Positions 1 through 22,096 of a stretch of DNA of 22,096 nt are shown here, piece by piece. The stretch is taken from positions 1-22,096 of the IMG/VR virus record IMGVR_UViG_3300048930_000079; one strand, 5' to 3'. Position 1 is the stretch's first letter. Every line of letters begins with the position of its first letter. Source of the DNA: a virus. The notes under the pieces are model-generated. The model worked only from the letters and a program-made list of their open reading frames with translations, did not search any database and was not told the DNA's origin. The position numbers and the translations under genes were made by a program.

Positions 1-283
1 CCAAGCGAATACGCTTGCATACTCGCTTGTGATCTGCTCCTGGTTTCGTCGGCAGGTCGAGAATCTGCTCCGCTTCAACTTTCCAGATTCGTGTTTCAGG
101 GTCGCTGTAGTAGGCCCACGGCCCGCTCGGATGGTCACAGAAATGAAAACCGGAACCGCACAGCTCGATTTCACCTTCGTGTTCATGCCACTCGCCGGGA
201 ACGAATTGGAAACTGAGGCAACGCAAGTTCTTGTCAGTTGCCTTGTAGCCTGTCATTCGTTCGATAAATTTCTGTTCGCTCAT
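1..283 (-). CDS. DUF7666-like protein, 3' end cut by window edge
   Basis: An open minus-strand frame runs from an ATG at 283 to the left window edge without a stop, giving 94 visible residues. It begins MSEQKFIERMTGYKATDKNL and continues with a FQFVPGEWHEHEGEIELC segment, a GFHFCDHPSGPWAYY segment and an IWKVEAEQ segment. This follows a pattern I know from phage and bacterial proteins (Gly-Tyr/Phe-Lys-Ala, then C-x-G-F-H-F/A-C, then an aromatic-rich stretch and a VEA strand) that I recall being labelled DUF7666; the label is from memory. No biochemical function is known to me. The ATG overlaps the csrA stop as ATGA, so the two are probably translationally coupled in one operon. A second Met at codon 10 (position 256) is possible but less likely. 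Confidence 0.75.
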   Translation of the reverse strand, partial: MSEQKFIERMTGYKATDKNLRCLSFQFVPGEWHEHEGEIELCGSGFHFCDHPSGPWAYYSDPETRIWKVEAEQILDLPTKPGADHKRVCKRIRL

Positions 284-483
284 GCCGATTCACGCTCCTT
301 TCTTTGCTCGCCATCACGCTGGATCGCGTCGTACACTTCTTCGCGATGGATCGGCACGCTGGCGGCTGCTTCCAGGCCGATGCGCACCTTGTCGCCTTTG
401 ATGTTGGTGATGACGAGACGTACTTGATTGGCGCCTTCGCCGATGATGATCTTCTCGTTTCGCTTCCTGCTCAAAACTAACAT
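280..483 (-). CDS. csrA: CsrA/RsmA-family translational regulator
   Basis: This 67-aa protein is a clear CsrA. It starts MLVLSRKRNEKIIIG, has the central KGDKVRIGLEA strand and ends the conserved core with PIHREEVYDAI. Established knowledge: CsrA dimers bind GGA motifs in mRNA leaders, often over the ribosome binding site, to repress or sometimes stabilise transcripts. The RNA-contacting residues can be seen: L4 and R6 near the N-terminus, and R47 in HREEVY, matching R44 of the E. coli protein. The loop after strand 2 is about three residues longer than in E. coli. A strong Shine-Dalgarno (GGAGG, 491-495) lies 7 bases before the ATG. The gene follows an 81-aa Cys-rich protein and overlaps the next gene by 4 bases. 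I infer that it helps the phage redirect host or phage mRNA translation; targets cannot be read from this window apart from its own leader. Confidence 0.96.
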   Translation of the reverse strand: MLVLSRKRNEKIIIGEGANQVRLVITNIKGDKVRIGLEAAASVPIHREEVYDAIQRDGEQRKERESA

Positions 484-547
484 GCGTTTTCCTCCGTGCT
501 TGGTGCTGTTTGCGTTTCCTCAAAACCTCCGGCGCGTTTCCGCGCCG
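484..547 (-). promoter_or_regulatory. csrA leader with GGA-loop hairpin, candidate CsrA autoregulatory element
   Basis: Reading the minus strand, positions 547-530 form a stem CGGCGC / GCGCCG closing a loop GGAAAC, with GGA exposed in the loop. The motif GGAAACGC occurs there (541-534) and again unpaired at 519-512. A close variant, GGAAAACGC, lies at 492-484 and overlaps the csrA Shine-Dalgarno GGAGG. Known CsrA targets carry GGA in hairpin loops plus a second GGA over the ribosome binding site, commonly tens of bases apart, which matches this layout. Autoregulation is an inference. Confidence 0.6.
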
Positions 548-557
548 CCGCCGTGAG

Positions 558-803
558 CTATGCTTGACACTCTTGGCATTCGCATTTCTGAACGCCGCAC
601 TCGATGCGTTGCAGCATATCCATGTACACCACCGAGATTTTCTCGCGGCTATCCCACCTAGCGGAAACCAGGTAGTGACATCCGGTGGCGACTCGAAACG
701 TCATTCCATCGGGCGCGATTGCTTCCACTTCGTTTTGCGCAAATTCCAACGTGATACCTGTCGCCTTAGCTTTCTCGATCAGCTTTTCTTTTGTGCTGGT
801 CAT
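558..803 (-). CDS. Hypothetical protein with C-terminal cysteine cluster
   Basis: I do not recognise this 81-aa protein. Residues 1-66 alternate short helix and strand patterns (TKEKLIEKAKATGITLEF, then FRVATGCHYLVSARW and ISVVYMDMLQRIE), suggesting a compact alpha/beta fold. The last 13 residues hold C69, C74, C76 and C79 (spacing C-x4-C-x-C-x2-C), with one more Cys at 42. Such a cluster could bind zinc or form disulfides; no nuclease or ribbon family can be named. The Shine-Dalgarno is weak (GAAAG region before the ATG at 803). It lies between a 114-aa unknown and csrA in a predicted single transcript, so a regulatory or anti-host role is possible but unproven. Confidence 0.65.
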   Translation of the reverse strand: MTSTKEKLIEKAKATGITLEFAQNEVEAIAPDGMTFRVATGCHYLVSARWDSREKISVVYMDMLQRIECGVQKCECQECQA

Positions 804-11082: not shown

Positions 11083-12471
11083 TTAGCGAGCACCAAGAGT
11101 GACGAATGGGCTGTAGGTGGCCGAGCCGTTAGCGGCGGCCATCGTGGTGGACCACCAAGGCATTCCGCCAACACGAAGAACGAATCGGAACGCCGTAGCG
11201 TTTTGGTCGAACCATAAATGCATCGAGGTATCGACGCGAGGATTCGCACCGGCCTTCAAGAGCAGCATGTACTGGCTGAAGTCGGCAAAGAAAATATCTC
11301 CAACGTCGCCAGCCGTCTTGCAAGCCTGATGAGGAATGACCGGACGGCCAAGCAGCACGCCATAAGGCGAACCCGACAAACCACCAGGAGGGAAGTACAA
11401 CTGCGAACCCCATCCGCTGACGGTGTTGCCGTCGTTATCGAGGCCAGCCAGTGAAAGCTTCATCATCCAAGGTTCAAGTTCTGGATTGATGAGCCAGACC
11501 GCAGTGGAACGCGAAGGAGCGTACATGCGGTTGTACATCTTGATGATGTTATTCGCGATAAGCGAATCAGCGATCTGCGACGACTCTTTCGTCACGGAGA
11601 CGATGGAAGGACTGGCAGCAATGCCGAGTGGCATTCCATTGCCTGTGCCGTGCAAAATGGCGTCATCGACCTTGTGGGCGATCTTCTGCGGAGCCTTGCG
11701 TCGAAGGTAAGAATCCAACGCTGGAGCATCCTCAAGCAGTTCGTCCGTCATTGCCACCAGGGCAGTGATGCGATTGAGCTTCACTGTGCGATCTTGCAGC
11801 GATGGCTTGGTTTGCGTCATCGTGGACGCTTCGCCATCCCAGTACGCTTGGATGCCGCCGCTGGTCTGCCAGGGGGTCGTTTCATCCGCTGGGCAAGAGA
11901 AGTTATTGCTGCTGGTGCGAATCTGGTCACATCGACCAACAAGCGTATCGCCACCCATCACGGTTTCCATGATGGTGTTTCGGAAGTCCGGCGGGACAGC
12001 GAATCCGCCATCCGTGCCGCTGGTTTCGTTGCCGTAGGTCGTGGCGGCCGCCAGGCGTTCCAGTCGAGGATCGACAGACCCGCCGTTCAAGGCAGATCGG
12101 CGAACATGGAAGGCCATTTCTCCCAGCGAGTGAAAACCGCCGTTTTTAGCCAAGGTCGGATTTGGGAGAACGCGAACCGATCCGCCCTTGGGTGCTAGAC
12201 GCTGTGGAGGAGCGTCGTCGTCGGACTGTTGAGTCAACTGGTCAGGCTGTGTCTTTCGGCCACTGCCAGCGGTCAATACTTGCTGTTGCTCGCCCAGAGA
12301 TTGCAGACGCTCGATATTCGCCTTGGTGTGTTCAAAGGCTTCGAGGTTGCGGTCGAATTGCTCGCCTTCTTCGACCGTGAAGTCACGCTTCTCGGCTTCC
12401 GCTTTGGCGGTGAGTGCTTCGTTGTCGGTGAGCAATTCCTGCAATCGCTCTTGCAGTGCGTTGATGTCCAT
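11083..12471 (-). CDS. HK97-fold major capsid protein with N-terminal delta domain
   Basis: This 462-aa protein has a charged coiled-coil N-terminus (about residues 1-65, ALQERLQELLTDNEALTAKA) that would act as internal scaffold and be removed by the protease encoded upstream. After a linker, the HK97 fold is visible: FAVPPDFRNTIMETV, RITALVAMTDELLEDAPALD, DDAILHGTGNGMPLGIAASP (E-loop and spine region) and the C-terminal GDIFFADFSQYMLLLKAGANP with RFVLRVGGMPWWSTTMA. AAGG lies 9 bases before the ATG at 12471. No separate scaffold gene is present, in agreement with the delta domain. The gene is preceded by an unusual noncoding spacer with a terminator-like hairpin. Confidence 0.95.
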   Translation of the reverse strand: MDINALQERLQELLTDNEALTAKAEAEKRDFTVEEGEQFDRNLEAFEHTKANIERLQSLGEQQQVLTAGSGRKTQPDQLTQQSDDDAPPQRLAPKGGSVRVLPNPTLAKNGGFHSLGEMAFHVRRSALNGGSVDPRLERLAAATTYGNETSGTDGGFAVPPDFRNTIMETVMGGDTLVGRCDQIRTSSNNFSCPADETTPWQTSGGIQAYWDGEASTMTQTKPSLQDRTVKLNRITALVAMTDELLEDAPALDSYLRRKAPQKIAHKVDDAILHGTGNGMPLGIAASPSIVSVTKESSQIADSLIANNIIKMYNRMYAPSRSTAVWLINPELEPWMMKLSLAGLDNDGNTVSGWGSQLYFPPGGLSGSPYGVLLGRPVIPHQACKTAGDVGDIFFADFSQYMLLLKAGANPRVDTSMHLWFDQNATAFRFVLRVGGMPWWSTTMAAANGSATYSPFVTLGAR

Positions 12472-15445: not shown

Positions 15446-17224
15446 TTAATAATCCTCATCGTCGTCTAGCCAATTAGGTGCGGTTGGCGGCGACTCGCTC
15501 ACGCCAAGGCTTAAAACGCCGCGTTTCTCATATACTGACGGTCGGTCGATGTTCGCAATCGTCCCAGCGAACGCCATTAACACCGCTACCATCCCGTCGA
15601 TCTTGTGCAACTTGTTGCCCTTGTCCGGCATCCATTCATCTTTGGCGTTGCGATTCACAGTCAAGTTGCCGGCCTGCCAGCCAAGGATTGGTTCGTTGCC
15701 GTGCCAAATGTTGCCAGCGTGCAATTCTCGCGTGAAGGTGCGGACGGGTTCGTTGTAGCTGCGGTGCGATTGGATGAACTTGTAGATTTCGAGGCCGTGT
15801 TCCTCTTGGAGTCGCTGGGCAATGACCGAAGCAAAGTTGGGATCGTATGCCCAGTTGCGAATGGCGTATTGATTCGACCACGCCACCGCTGTGCGTTCGA
15901 CAACAGAAAAATCCACTTGGTCGCCGTCGTGAACTTCTAACAGTCCGTCGCGAATCCACGAGCGAAACGGTTCCTGCGCGACCGGGAACGTGCCATCCTT
16001 GCAACACCACGCCTTGGCAATGACTTCCCAATGGTCAATGGCTCGACCTTCGTCCGTCTCGCGGTAGAAGGGGAACGCAGCTCCGATTGCACACCAGTCG
16101 TCGGAGCGTCCGAGGTCGAATCCGCCAAAGCCTTCCGAGCCTTGCTTGATGGTTAATGGCTGGCTGCCCTTCTTCCACATCTCAGATGAAATAGCACGCT
16201 CACTCGAACCCACCTTGACATTGCAGTGGTAGCGTAGGAATTGGTTCGTCGTCGTTGGCTTGTGCTTCGCTTCGTTGGCTTGCGTGCGGAGATATTCCGG
16301 CTTGACGCTAACGCCGTAGTTGGGGTTCGCCTTGGGCCAGACTTTCTCGTCGAACGGGTCGTCGCCGTCGTCGATGCGTGCCACAAATGCGAACGCTGTA
16401 TCGTCGATGATGTTGCCGTCGATCACCGATTCCAGCACCTTGACCGCGAATTCGTCCTCTTCCAGCCAGAGTTGGGATTTGTCGTCTCCGGCGGTGGTGA
16501 TAATCGCCATGAGCGGTTGTCGGCGCGAACCACTGCCGGTGTTCATCGTTTCGTGGAACGGCCGATGATGCTCTCGCCAGGCGTGCAATTCGTCCAACAC
16601 GATGCAATGCGGGTTGAGTCCGTCGAACGGCTTATCGCTACCAAGGGGACGAAACAGAGAATGCTTATCCTCCCAGCTAATTCGCTGCGGAGCCGACGCT
16701 CGCACTGTCGCCCGCTTCCTTAACGCCGGAGACGCTTGCACCATGCGAACCGCCTCACGATGAAGAATCTTGGCTTGGTCCTCTTTAGTCGCAGCACAAT
16801 ACACCTCCGCTCCCGGCTCGAAAGGCTCGTCTGCGAACATGCACAGCAGCGCGAGCCCAGAACACAGGGTTGTCTTGCCATTCTTTCTCGCGAACGTCAG
16901 ATACGCCTTGCGAAACCGACGCAAGCCCGTTTGAATGTTTCGCCAGCCGAACAAGCACCAGATGATGAACTTCTGGAACGGGGCAAGCTCGAATCGCTCG
17001 CCATCCCATTCGCCGATCGAGTGACGGCAGCACTTAGGAAAGAACAGCACCGCCCTGGTCGCAATATCCTTGTCGAACTTCCAGCCGCGAGAATGAGCGT
17101 GCTCAAGATCTTGGACGTGACGCTGAACCGCTAAGAGTACGAGTCGGCCCACAACGATCTCCCCGGAGAGAACGCCGTCGATGTAATCTTGAACGTCGTG
17201 TTGTGGGTTTGCGTGCGCGATCAT
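15446..17224 (-). CDS. Terminase large subunit
   Basis: The 592-aa product is a clear packaging ATPase-nuclease. Walker A is ARKNGKTT (112-119), preceded by the usual RFRKAYLTF strand. Walker B is CIVLDE (207-212), and a motif III-like ITTAG lies at 242-246. The nuclease domain carries acidic residues at D370 (GGFDLGRSDDW), D461 (WAYDPNF) and D543 (KIDGMVA), the three positions expected for the RNase H-like fold. The protein translocates DNA into the prohead through the portal encoded next. The ATG overlaps the small-subunit stop as ATGA. An Asp/Glu-rich tail (LDDDEDY) closes the protein. Confidence 0.97.
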   Translation of the reverse strand: MIAHANPQHDVQDYIDGVLSGEIVVGRLVLLAVQRHVQDLEHAHSRGWKFDKDIATRAVLFFPKCCRHSIGEWDGERFELAPFQKFIIWCLFGWRNIQTGLRRFRKAYLTFARKNGKTTLCSGLALLCMFADEPFEPGAEVYCAATKEDQAKILHREAVRMVQASPALRKRATVRASAPQRISWEDKHSLFRPLGSDKPFDGLNPHCIVLDELHAWREHHRPFHETMNTGSGSRRQPLMAIITTAGDDKSQLWLEEDEFAVKVLESVIDGNIIDDTAFAFVARIDDGDDPFDEKVWPKANPNYGVSVKPEYLRTQANEAKHKPTTTNQFLRYHCNVKVGSSERAISSEMWKKGSQPLTIKQGSEGFGGFDLGRSDDWCAIGAAFPFYRETDEGRAIDHWEVIAKAWCCKDGTFPVAQEPFRSWIRDGLLEVHDGDQVDFSVVERTAVAWSNQYAIRNWAYDPNFASVIAQRLQEEHGLEIYKFIQSHRSYNEPVRTFTRELHAGNIWHGNEPILGWQAGNLTVNRNAKDEWMPDKGNKLHKIDGMVAVLMAFAGTIANIDRPSVYEKRGVLSLGVSESPPTAPNWLDDDEDY

Positions 17225-18330: not shown

Positions 18331-18906
18331 TCACGCATTGGGACCATTCACAACATCAATCTTGAGCTTATTCCCATCATGTGGAAACGAATCACCGTTA
18401 CCACTCTCGATCACTCGGAACCACAGCCAGAACGTTCCCTCTGTATCAAGGTTTCCGGCCGTGAATGTGTAGGTGACGCTCCCAACAATGAACGCCGTAT
18501 GATTCCCGCTACCTGCTGACGCCAGGTCGATCGCAGGCCCGTCCTTGGTGGCTGCCACCCGAAACGAATTATCTTCCACGTCTCGAGCGAAGTACCTTGT
18601 TGCCGCGGTCAGCCCGCTTGGAAGCGTCCCGTCTGTGGCGAACACGACTTGCATTCCCTTGGTGACACGATGATCGTTGGCCGTGAGCCTGGCTCCTGTC
18701 GCACTTGCCACGACCGTAAACGTCGGGTGAATGCTCACACCGGTCGCTGTCGCTGCCTGCTTTGCTCCTCCTGAAGCCGTCTCGATAATCACGTTGACCG
18801 TTTTGCCGGCGAGGTCCACAGGCTTGCCGCCCTGCATGAGGACAGCAGCCAAGGGCGTGCGAATATCACCTTTGGTACGGACATCAGTTTGAAGCGTGTT
18901 GTTCAT
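18331..18906 (-). CDS. BppU-like baseplate protein with inserted beta module
   Basis: This 191-aa protein has the BppU N-terminal type layout: TDVRTKGDIRTPLAAVLMQGGKPVDLAGKTVNVIIETASGG at the start and FTAGNLDTEGTFWLWFRVIESG ... FPHDGNKLKIDVV at the end. These are the strands that normally follow each other directly in upper baseplate proteins. Between them, residues 60-140 hold a separate module with ANDHRVTKGMQVVFATDGTLP, AATRYFARDVEDNSFRVAATKDGPAIDLASAGSGNHT. That is a widespread phage-fibre beta domain that I recognise by pattern. The protein probably joins the host-recognition apparatus. The start overlaps the upstream stop as ATGA. Confidence 0.82.
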   Translation of the reverse strand: MNNTLQTDVRTKGDIRTPLAAVLMQGGKPVDLAGKTVNVIIETASGGAKQAATATGVSIHPTFTVVASATGARLTANDHRVTKGMQVVFATDGTLPSGLTAATRYFARDVEDNSFRVAATKDGPAIDLASAGSGNHTAFIVGSVTYTFTAGNLDTEGTFWLWFRVIESGNGDSFPHDGNKLKIDVVNGPNA

Positions 18907-19742
18907 CCGCCGCGTACCTCTCGAAAGGCTGTTTCGGGTCCATTGATTTGCGTGGCTGTCGTGTTTGGTCCGGCGAGTTTGGTGAATTGATTGTCTGGGC
19001 CACGGAGGACGTAGAAGGGGCCGGAGATGATTGGAGAACTTGCATCCACCATCACCCCGCTCACCGCAAACGTCAGTGTCGTCTCCCCGCTCATCGCCCC
19101 AGCACCAACCAGAACGCCGGCAGTCGTAAACGTCAGGTCGGTCGATCCAACTAACGCTCCCGCACCCTGGAGGCTTCCCGCCGTGCTAAACGTCAAGTCT
19201 GTCGCGCCACTCGCAAACGCGAATCCGTCCAAGTCTCCCGTTGTGCTGAACGTGAGCGAGGTCTCGCCTGCCAAGTCGCCAGCACCGAGGAGTAGCCCAG
19301 CCGTGCTAAACGTGAGCGACGTGCTGCCACTCATCGCGCCAGCCGTCAGATTTTCGAGCGTGCCAGCCAGGGTGAAGGTGAGCGAGGTCGATCCCTCTAA
19401 GACGCCCGCGCCAAGCAACGTCCCGCTGGGCGCAAATATGAGCGAGGTCGAACCCGCCATCGCCCCGGCCCCAGTCAGGCTGCCAGAGGGGGAGAATGTC
19501 AGTGAGGTCGTGCCGGCGAGTGTTCCCGCGCCGACCAGAACACCCGCCGTCGTGAATGTGAGCGACGATGCCCCCGCCAGCGCACCGGCGCCTACCAGCG
19601 TCCCCGATGGCGCGAACGTCAAATCCGTCGCACCTACCAACGCCCCTGAACCAACGAGCAGGCCCGCAGTCGAAAAGGTCAGCGATGTGCTGCCTACGAT
19701 GTCGCCTGAGACGTTCGGTTTGGAGAGCCAATATTGGAGCAT
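18903..19742 (-). CDS. Tail/fibre protein made of eleven 20-residue beta repeats
   Basis: This 279-aa protein has a 16-residue start, eleven tandem repeats (residues 17 to about 232) and a 47-residue C-terminus (ISGPFYVLRGPDNQFTKLAGPNTT ... FREVRGG). Each repeat reads like G-x-T-x-L-T-F-x-x-x-G-x-L-x-G-A-G-x-L-x. One copy carries two extra residues. Such repeats form stacked beta rungs in extended shafts. The C-terminus (FYVLRGPDNQFTKLAG) may trimerise or bind a partner. There is no strong Shine-Dalgarno. A 60-base spacer separates it from the upstream fibre gene. It is coupled to the BppU-like gene, so it is probably part of the same host-contact structure. Confidence 0.82.
   Translation of the reverse strand: MLQYWLSKPNVSGDIVGSTSLTFSTAGLLVGSGALVGATDLTFAPSGTLVGAGALAGASSLTFTTAGVLVGAGTLAGTTSLTFSPSGSLTGAGAMAGSTSLIFAPSGTLLGAGVLEGSTSLTFTLAGTLENLTAGAMSGSTSLTFSTAGLLLGAGDLAGETSLTFSTTGDLDGFAFASGATDLTFSTAGSLQGAGALVGSTDLTFTTAGVLVGAGAMSGETTLTFAVSGVMVDASSPIISGPFYVLRGPDNQFTKLAGPNTTATQINGPETAFREVRGG
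19047..19694 (-). repeat. Eleven in-frame tandem repeats of about 60 bp
   Basis: The 60-bp unit (20 codons; one unit of 66 bp) is repeated ten full times and once partly. Copies differ at many positions but keep the core T-x-L-T-F and the Gly turns. The divergence suggests old expansion with purifying selection on the fold. Number of copies could vary by recombination. Confidence 0.9.
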
Positions 19743-20275: not shown

Positions 20276-21622
20276 TTAGACGATCCTGCCCAAGACGATG
20301 TACTTGCTGGTGTTGTCTGGCTGTGTCACCCACGGCGAATCGGTTGTTGCATCCTTCGTGGTCGTTCCGGCGTAGGCGGTGATTTGCCGAGACTGTCCCG
20401 CCCCTGCTCCGTCGTAGATTTTCACCACGGCGTCTTTGTAAAAATCATCTTCCGCCGATGCCCCGCTGCGTAAGCGAATCGTCGATGCTCCTCCCGCCTG
20501 AGCCGTACCAATGTCATCGACGAATTGAGCGACGACGGAATCTCGGATGGCGTCGATAGTCGCAGTTGCCAATCCGGTTGCCGTTAGTCCAGCCCCCGCT
20601 ACTCCGATATCATCGGTTTGCGATTCGATATCAACCAGGTTTGCGGCGATGGACGCGCCGCTGCCAAGGTCGGATGGCGAGCCGAGTGTGGTGGTGACAT
20701 AGCCATATAAAGTAGACAAGTCAGAAGCCGTTGCCAATCCTGATTGGATGGCACTGATCGCACTTCCAGCCAGCGACGAACTATCAATCGCACTCGCCGC
20801 AAATGACGATGAGGTAATTGCACCCGATGCCACCGTATACGCATTCGCGTCAACTCGTCCGCCCATTTGCTGGATCGTCGAGCCGCCTACGTGCGTCGTA
20901 TTAACCTCTGGCCGTCCGCCGCTGAACGTGCCGTTCGTGCCGCCGAATTGGGTGATGTTCGTGTCGGCCTGGCCTGACGTTCCGACGGCCAATGTTCGCC
21001 CGACAACCGCTGCCTGCAACGGTGCAAGGTCCATCAGGCAGAAGTTATCGCCAGCCGCCGCTGTGAATGTCGCGCCGGCCGCTAACGTGACGGTCTTCGT
21101 GCTCCCGGTGTAGTCGCTAATCAGGACTTTGGCGAACTGCACGGCGCTGGCGGCGTCGTGAATGATCGCGTACATACCATTGAGCGCGTCGTCTTCGGCA
21201 GGCCCAGTGGTGAGTGTGAATGATGTTTGGATCGCCAGCGACGCAATCGTAGTATTTAAGATCGCTGACGGATAGCCAATTGTGAACGTTGCAGCGGTGA
21301 AGCTGACTGTTTGCGTGTTGATCGTGACGCTATCAATCACCACGCGATAATGCGAACCGGCGGTGAAGAATCCAGTTGTCGTATTGTCGGCGAGGCTAAT
21401 GCTCAGGCCGTGAATGCCGGTCACGCTGTCGAAGTCGATGCCATCGGTATCGAGTAGTGTATAGCCGCTGGTCGATGCTCGCTCCGTGGTCCCGCCATCC
21501 TTATAGATTTTGACATCGCCGACGGCTAGCCCGGTGAGTGTGAGCGATTCGCCATCCGCGCCGAACGAATCGAATTCGATATAGATTGTAGAGCCGGGCC
21601 GAACGATGCCAAAGTCGATCAT
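20276..21622 (-). CDS. Fibre-like structural protein with duplicated module
   Basis: This 448-aa protein has an N-terminal adaptor region (MIDFGIVRPGSTIYIEFDSF, GLAVGDVKIYKDGGTTERAS, then HYRVVIDSVTINTQTVSF) that I recognise from many phage fibre or collar proteins. It has a central Ala/Ser-rich helical stretch (about 250-365, SSSFAASAIDSSSLAGSAIS) and a C-terminal domain. Two segments, 132-200 and 388-448, share AEDD, then I-x-D-x-A-x-A-x-Q, a Y-x-G-x-T-K strand and a final A-x-D, indicating an internal duplication. The start overlaps the upstream repeat gene as ATGA, and GAGG lies 8 bases before it. A role in host attachment is likely. Confidence 0.8.
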   Translation of the reverse strand: MIDFGIVRPGSTIYIEFDSFGADGESLTLTGLAVGDVKIYKDGGTTERASTSGYTLLDTDGIDFDSVTGIHGLSISLADNTTTGFFTAGSHYRVVIDSVTINTQTVSFTAATFTIGYPSAILNTTIASLAIQTSFTLTTGPAEDDALNGMYAIIHDAASAVQFAKVLISDYTGSTKTVTLAAGATFTAAAGDNFCLMDLAPLQAAVVGRTLAVGTSGQADTNITQFGGTNGTFSGGRPEVNTTHVGGSTIQQMGGRVDANAYTVASGAITSSSFAASAIDSSSLAGSAISAIQSGLATASDLSTLYGYVTTTLGSPSDLGSGASIAANLVDIESQTDDIGVAGAGLTATGLATATIDAIRDSVVAQFVDDIGTAQAGGASTIRLRSGASAEDDFYKDAVVKIYDGAGAGQSRQITAYAGTTTKDATTDSPWVTQPDNTSKYIVLGRIV

Positions 21623-22096
21623 GCGATGAGCCTCGCGCGGTTAAGGAGCTTGGATTCCAGCAGTGTGATTAGGCCGGTGGCTGGAGGTGCAGCCGCTGGA
21701 AAGGCGATGCCGTATCCGGTGCTTGGCGGCAAGGAACCGGGATCAGTCCATTTCGTTCCGAATGACGTGGTAATGCTGTAAATCGAAATGTAGGGGGAAT
21801 TGTTGTGCGCGAGTCCGACGATGCCGGAGGCGAAAGCGATGCCATATCCGGTGCCAGTCGGCAACGAACCTGGATCAGTCCATTTCGTGCCGAATGAACT
21901 TGTGATGCTGTAGATCGAAATGTAGGGAGAACCGATGTGAGCAAGGCCGACGATACCGGAGGCGAAGGCGATGCCAATTCCATAACTTGGCGGCAAGGAA
22001 CCGGGATCAGTCCATTTCGTTCCGAATGACGTGGTAATGCTGTAAATCGAAATGTAGGGGGAATTGTTGTGCGCGAGTCCGACGATACCGGAGGCG
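21619..22096 (-). CDS. Tandem-repeat tail protein, beta-propeller-like, 5' end cut by window edge
   Basis: The minus-strand frame is open from the right edge to a TGA at 21621-21619. A TTG at 21996 is an internal Leu rather than the true start, since the repeat continues upstream without a stop. About 158 residues are visible. They hold 44-residue units with YGIAFASGIVGLAH, then SPYISIYSIT, SFGTKWTDPGSLP. This resembles WD40-like propeller blades of phage tail proteins, where each unit has a hydrophobic strand pair, an AH-x-x-SPYI-x-IY strand and a closing turn. A short C-terminus (LITLLESKLLNRARLIA) follows a broken last unit. A host-adhesion role is inferred from fold type and neighbours. 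Confidence 0.8.
   Translation of the reverse strand, partial: ASGIVGLAHNNSPYISIYSITTSFGTKWTDPGSLPPSYGIGIAFASGIVGLAHIGSPYISIYSITSSFGTKWTDPGSLPTGTGYGIAFASGIVGLAHNNSPYISIYSITTSFGTKWTDPGSLPPSTGYGIAFPAAAPPATGLITLLESKLLNRARLIA
21740..22096 (-). repeat. 132-bp tandem repeats with alternating A-B-A similarity
   Basis: Equivalent points lie at 21740, 21872 and 22004, giving an exact 132-bp period. Over the 93 bases that can be compared, the first and third copies differ at one base, while the middle copy differs from either at about a dozen. The array continues past the window edge. Confidence 0.93.

Follow-up and report, generated by a model that had tools for sequence, protein, structure and literature searches.

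The window analysed here spans all 22,096 bases of its IMG/VR virus record and carries a genuine CsrA-family gene of an uncultured tailed phage, and this gene is probably repressed by its own product (probability about 0.6). In the favoured reading, which rests on sequence comparison, the phage CsrA is functional and would bind the ANGGA element within its own Shine-Dalgarno sequence, limiting its own level and probably that of the following DUF7666 gene, while a hairpin farther upstream in the leader is likelier to be ordinary RNA structure. What deserves attention is a bias towards ANGGA at the ribosome-binding site that extends across viral csrA genes, a modest group trait, rather than the hairpin; the csrA of the window is an ordinary phage csrA with a simple, plausible self-repression site.

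The csrA gene (280-483, minus strand) encodes 67 amino acids that match Pfam PF02599 (E=1.5e-19; 70.1 bits against a curated cut-off of 27), which places the product in the CsrA/RsmA family, and PHROG 9500, "CsrA-like regulator" (E=1.4e-15). The protein can be aligned from end to end with CsrA and RsmA proteins of known structure, E. coli CsrA (1y00) over residues 1-61, and the top PDB matches of an AlphaFold monomer model (pLDDT 85.7, pTM 0.56) are CsrA, RsmA and RsmE chains (best E 8e-4, TM 0.45-0.6). The RNA-contact roles of L4, R6 and R44 are established from CsrA/RsmE structures. These residues (E. coli numbering; R44 is R47 here, the arginine of HREE) are invariant across a 15-sequence alignment of relatives, and P37 of E. 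coli CsrA is replaced by A. The preliminary description of a full-length CsrA with the key RNA-binding residues is thus borne out.

Every convincing gene of the window lies on the minus strand. The order is small terminase (TerS; PF05119), terminase large subunit (TerL; 15446-17224; PF20441/PF03354; PHROG 9, E=7e-135), portal (PF04860), major capsid protein (11083-12471; PF05065, E=8e-44), an HK97-gp10-like gene, a tape-measure gene and then, as far as about position 1557, genes of no known family, with csrA downstream of these. Between the latter genes and csrA lies a small helix-turn-helix gene, excisionase-like (1267-1482), followed by a gene without known family (828-1172) and a small one of 81 amino acids (558-803, minus strand), likewise without known family, which directly precedes the csrA leader. 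With these phage genes on the same strand, the placement of csrA in a phage-like region holds, and the gene is phage-borne. On its other side, the csrA stop codon overlaps, as ATGA, the start of the DUF7666 gene (2-283, minus strand; Pfam PF24703, E=8e-21), which runs off the contig end; from this overlap, the two genes are probably translationally coupled. The Shine-Dalgarno of the DUF7666 gene, AAAGGAG, likewise contains ANGGA. Elsewhere in the window, repeat proteins are encoded at 18903-19742 (STSLTFSTAGxLxGAGAL repeats) and at 21619-22096 (43-residue IAFASGIVGLAHNNSPYISIYSI... repeats, cut short by the contig end).

The csrA leader, from the upstream stop codon to the csrA start, measures 74 nt (484-557, minus strand) and contains five GGA, where dinucleotide shuffles would give 2.2 (p=0.011). 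Its Shine-Dalgarno, CACGGAGG (region 488-497, minus strand, within CACGGAGGAAAACGC-ATG), includes ACGGA (493-497), the only ANGGA of the leader and the likely CsrA repression site; the A stands two bases before GGA, and the C directly before GGA does not extend ribosome pairing. The three leader features of the preliminary description are correctly located on the minus strand: a hairpin of sequence CGGCGCGGAAACGCGCCG (530-547), GGAAACGC (512-519) and GGAAAACGC (484-492). The last two are the second and third copies of a repeat; GGAAAACGC holds the second GGA of the Shine-Dalgarno, and GGAAACGC is mostly unpaired in the predicted fold and has GA before its GGA, so that it is not ANGGA. An Rfam search of the window gave no match.

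The Shine-Dalgarno type seen in the window recurs in viral csrA as a group. Viral csrA leaders (loci L073-L149 and L163-L242) were compared with those of further ORFs that have a Shine-Dalgarno and lie on the contigs of these csrA genes; a GenBank "Acinetobacter phage" record (MD-2021a, CAKLQH020000034, locus L158), whose alaS-thrA-csrA arrangement looks like bacterial DNA, was excluded. In the first viral set 36-37 of 45 csrA genes have an A two bases upstream of GGAG, whereas 90 of 271 control genes do (p=4e-9); in a second set, gathered with a different query, the counts are 27 of 40 for csrA and 83 of 243 for controls (p=8e-5). The controls were called mechanically, so that some of their Shine-Dalgarnos may be false, and the redundancy filter leaves some common ancestry among the leaders. 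Among csrA loci from bacterial and archaeal genome contigs, mostly bacterial and rich in Krumholzibacteria, the proportion was 16/17 (controls, 24/66). An A at this position could aid ribosome pairing only if the intervening base is also A. The bias persists where GGAG is directly preceded by a base other than A (pooled, 35 of 43 csrA against 96 of 323 controls, p=9e-11), which removes extended anti-Shine-Dalgarno pairing as its cause, and it is also seen with stricter controls (ORFs of at least 200 amino acids). Planctomycete chromosomal csrA copies display it weakly and not significantly (15/26 against 9/22), and their difference from viral csrA (37/45) has p=0.03.

Upstream of the Shine-Dalgarno, ANGGA occurs 0.68 times per leader in the window-like viral set against 0.31 in controls (p<5e-5), whereas GAG, AGG, CNGGA and GNGGA are not enriched there; several motifs were counted, ANGGA being the one set in advance by the literature. 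In the second viral set this enrichment was not reproduced (0.26 per leader, controls 0.23), and it was rejected as a rule for all viral csrA. The ANGGA bias across viral csrA speaks for self-repression of phage csrA genes, taken as a class, at the ribosome-binding site, and the GGA at the ribosome-binding site of the window, previously proposed as a CsrA motif, belongs to a trait common to that group. The csrA leader of another locus, L092, is built from tandem repeats of the GGGGACGGGGACG type, rich in GGA, and resembles either a CsrA sponge or a simple repeat.

The mechanism to which these data point is a simple one: CsrA dimers made from the phage gene would bind the ANGGA within its Shine-Dalgarno and keep the ribosome from it, so that csrA would be repressed and its protein level self-limited, and the repression would probably extend through the overlapping start codon to the DUF7666 gene. 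Ribosome exclusion at the Shine-Dalgarno is the best-supported mechanism, since CACGGAGG is of the group type and the leader upstream of it contains no ANGGA; the same lack of an upstream ANGGA makes textbook two-site bridging weak here.

A bridging model had nevertheless been implied by the preliminary description, which took hairpin 530-547 as a loop-GGA CsrA site: the dimer would be tethered by a high-affinity GGA in the loop and reach from there to the Shine-Dalgarno. The spacing of the GGA elements (22-27 nt) does fall within the bridging range of 10-63 nt, with an optimum above 18 nt (PMC7652899), and the GA of the loop GGA is exposed, so that CsrA may bind it weakly. Good CsrA sites, however, are ANGGAN hexaloops with GGA at loop positions 3-5, pairing of the GGA lowers affinity, and the stems of most CsrA SELEX ligands have no more than four pairs (PMC7652899). 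The hairpin of the window, stable by itself (-14.2 kcal/mol), has seven G-C pairs and a GAAA tetraloop closed by the first G of GGA, which is almost never unpaired (probability 0.01); opening this pair would cost about 3.2 kcal/mol and place GGA at loop positions 1-3. Because this G is nearly always paired and no A stands two bases before it, the hairpin is not accepted as a CsrA site on its anatomy, and the leader contains no upstream ANGGAN hexaloop of high affinity. A search of related csrA leaders for conserved GGA loops, proposed earlier as a check, told the same way: the exact hairpin sequence is absent from the 241 other loci examined, the closest viral relatives included, so that there is no hairpin in a relative to compare for covariation, and the leader structure is not conserved, relatives with 72% identical CsrA having a different leader. 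Tethering by the hairpin is thus quite unlikely. An intrinsic terminator was also considered for 530-547, and the scan found none there. The GAAA-capped stem would more probably be an ordinary intergenic RNA structure, contributing stability or spacing, than a docking loop for CsrA. Of the leader "shaped for CsrA autoregulation" and the self-limiting translational regulator proposed at the outset, the ANGGA at the ribosome-binding site fits and is retained as a prediction, and the hairpin as CsrA site and tether is dropped.

An account without any autoregulation, in which the GGA elements result from a strong csrA ribosome-binding site and from chance, draws on the leader statistics. Two of the five GGA belong to the Shine-Dalgarno, and without it three remain against 1.4 expected, which is not significant (p=0.10); the whole leader folds no better than its shuffles (z=-1.2). 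The motif GGAAA(A)CGC, which occurs three times, was reached in 0 of 5000 shuffles but was picked after seeing the sequence, and 6% of shuffles and 2.5% of the 74-nt segments of this contig contain some 6-mer three times. As the triple repeat is only mildly unusual, GGAAACGC was rejected as a specific protein-binding repeat; like the hairpin, the triple repeat did not turn up in any of the other csrA leaders that were compared. What this account leaves unexplained is the A two bases upstream of GGAG, which does not follow from Shine-Dalgarno strength and whose bias is specific to csrA in two viral sets; it is considered doubtful. A further possibility, compatible with self-repression, is that the phage CsrA titrates or replaces the Csr network of the host and that the leader features are incidental. 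Plasmid-encoded RsmQ takes over regulation globally in Pseudomonas fluorescens (PMC9928087), and, if the host is a planctomycete, a Csr network would be available to enter, since many planctomycete genomes encode CsrA (csrA in 43 of 119 sampled genomes), some of them multiply (9-17 copies). Against this, the assignment to planctomycetes comes only from the CsrA relatives, which point weakly to Planctomycetota (58% identity in Fuerstiella), and from TerL, matched at 25-40% in 15 of 294 genomes. Host-directed action is given an appreciable chance, well below even. Such multiplicity is seen in six Planctomycetota genomes with 9 to 17 CsrA-family matches each (G072, G093, G048, G111, G129 and G012), and a limited literature search found no paper on such a CsrA expansion.

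Among viruses, the closest CsrA proteins are those of two IMG/VR contigs (L073 and L074), which are 72% identical to that of the window and share its two-residue insertion, GEG(A/E)NQVRL; their csrA leaders have neither the GC hairpin nor GGAAACGC, and a TerL of the window type was not found on these contigs. By TerL and capsid (100%), one record only, L049, is the same virus, and it spans TerL to capsid, not csrA; there is no second contig that covers the csrA locus of the window. The other TerL and capsid relatives are 44-56% identical, and csrA was not found on their records, many of which are short. When the genes at 558-803 and 828-1172 were used as anchors for related loci, relatives were not found in IMG/VR, and tblastn revealed no neighbours, DUF7666 included, common to the window csrA and other csrA loci. 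Elsewhere, six viral contigs of 19-204 kb (L006-L011) carry csrA directly behind the same reading frame (ending in ...QLLNDSVQR in L007), seemingly a viral lineage that retains csrA in place.

CsrA controls many genes at once, so that a phage with its own csrA could redirect its host without touching transcription; most phage csrA genes have, to our knowledge, no known function. From the ANGGA that their ribosome-binding sites share, the prediction follows that the csrA genes of the cultured phages phi297 and VvAW1 are repressed by their own product, and perhaps by host CsrA; if host CsrA also represses phage csrA, the latter would be a sensor of the Csr state of the host. Viral csrA as a class might then have kept or evolved a Shine-Dalgarno that doubles as a CsrA site, more than its contig neighbours and possibly more than planctomycete chromosomal copies, the phage thereby reading host Csr activity. 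This is a speculative extension and rather unlikely; if true, phage csrA expression would be set by the total CsrA pool, including that of the host.

The presence of csrA on mobile elements, invoked in the preliminary description, is established (PMC7366521, PMC9928087), and its carriage by phages is not new, given a 2020 survey that found csrA in 30 of 2517 phages (PMC7366521) and many further records. A phage collection holds 49 records with a csrA match, at least one of them apparently bacterial DNA, and CsrA like that of the window occurs on at least 355 IMG/VR contigs, and a second CsrA query gave at least 378, two counts that may overlap and in which some viral contigs may contain host DNA. 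With the phage csrA/rsm alleles already described (RsmM of Pseudomonas aeruginosa phages such as phi297; Vibrio phages VvAW1 and D279; PHROG 9500), the window shares a CsrA-family gene on a tailed phage amid small genes of unknown function; the CsrA proteins of the phage collection are, however, at most 35-47% identical to that of the window, and in phi297 and VvAW1 csrA lies in the early or recombination region, whereas here it lies downstream of the tail genes. Of the four sites at which E. coli CsrA holds down translation of its own mRNA, one covers the Shine-Dalgarno (PMC7652899), and a CsrA site in this position is what is predicted for the window; the four E. coli sites have been mapped, whereas in the window only the Shine-Dalgarno site fits ANGGA and is read from the sequence. 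RsmQ of pQBR103 is, like the phage protein, a CsrA homologue on a mobile element, but it is plasmid-borne and its global effect has been demonstrated (PMC9928087), whereas the gene of the window is known from its sequence.
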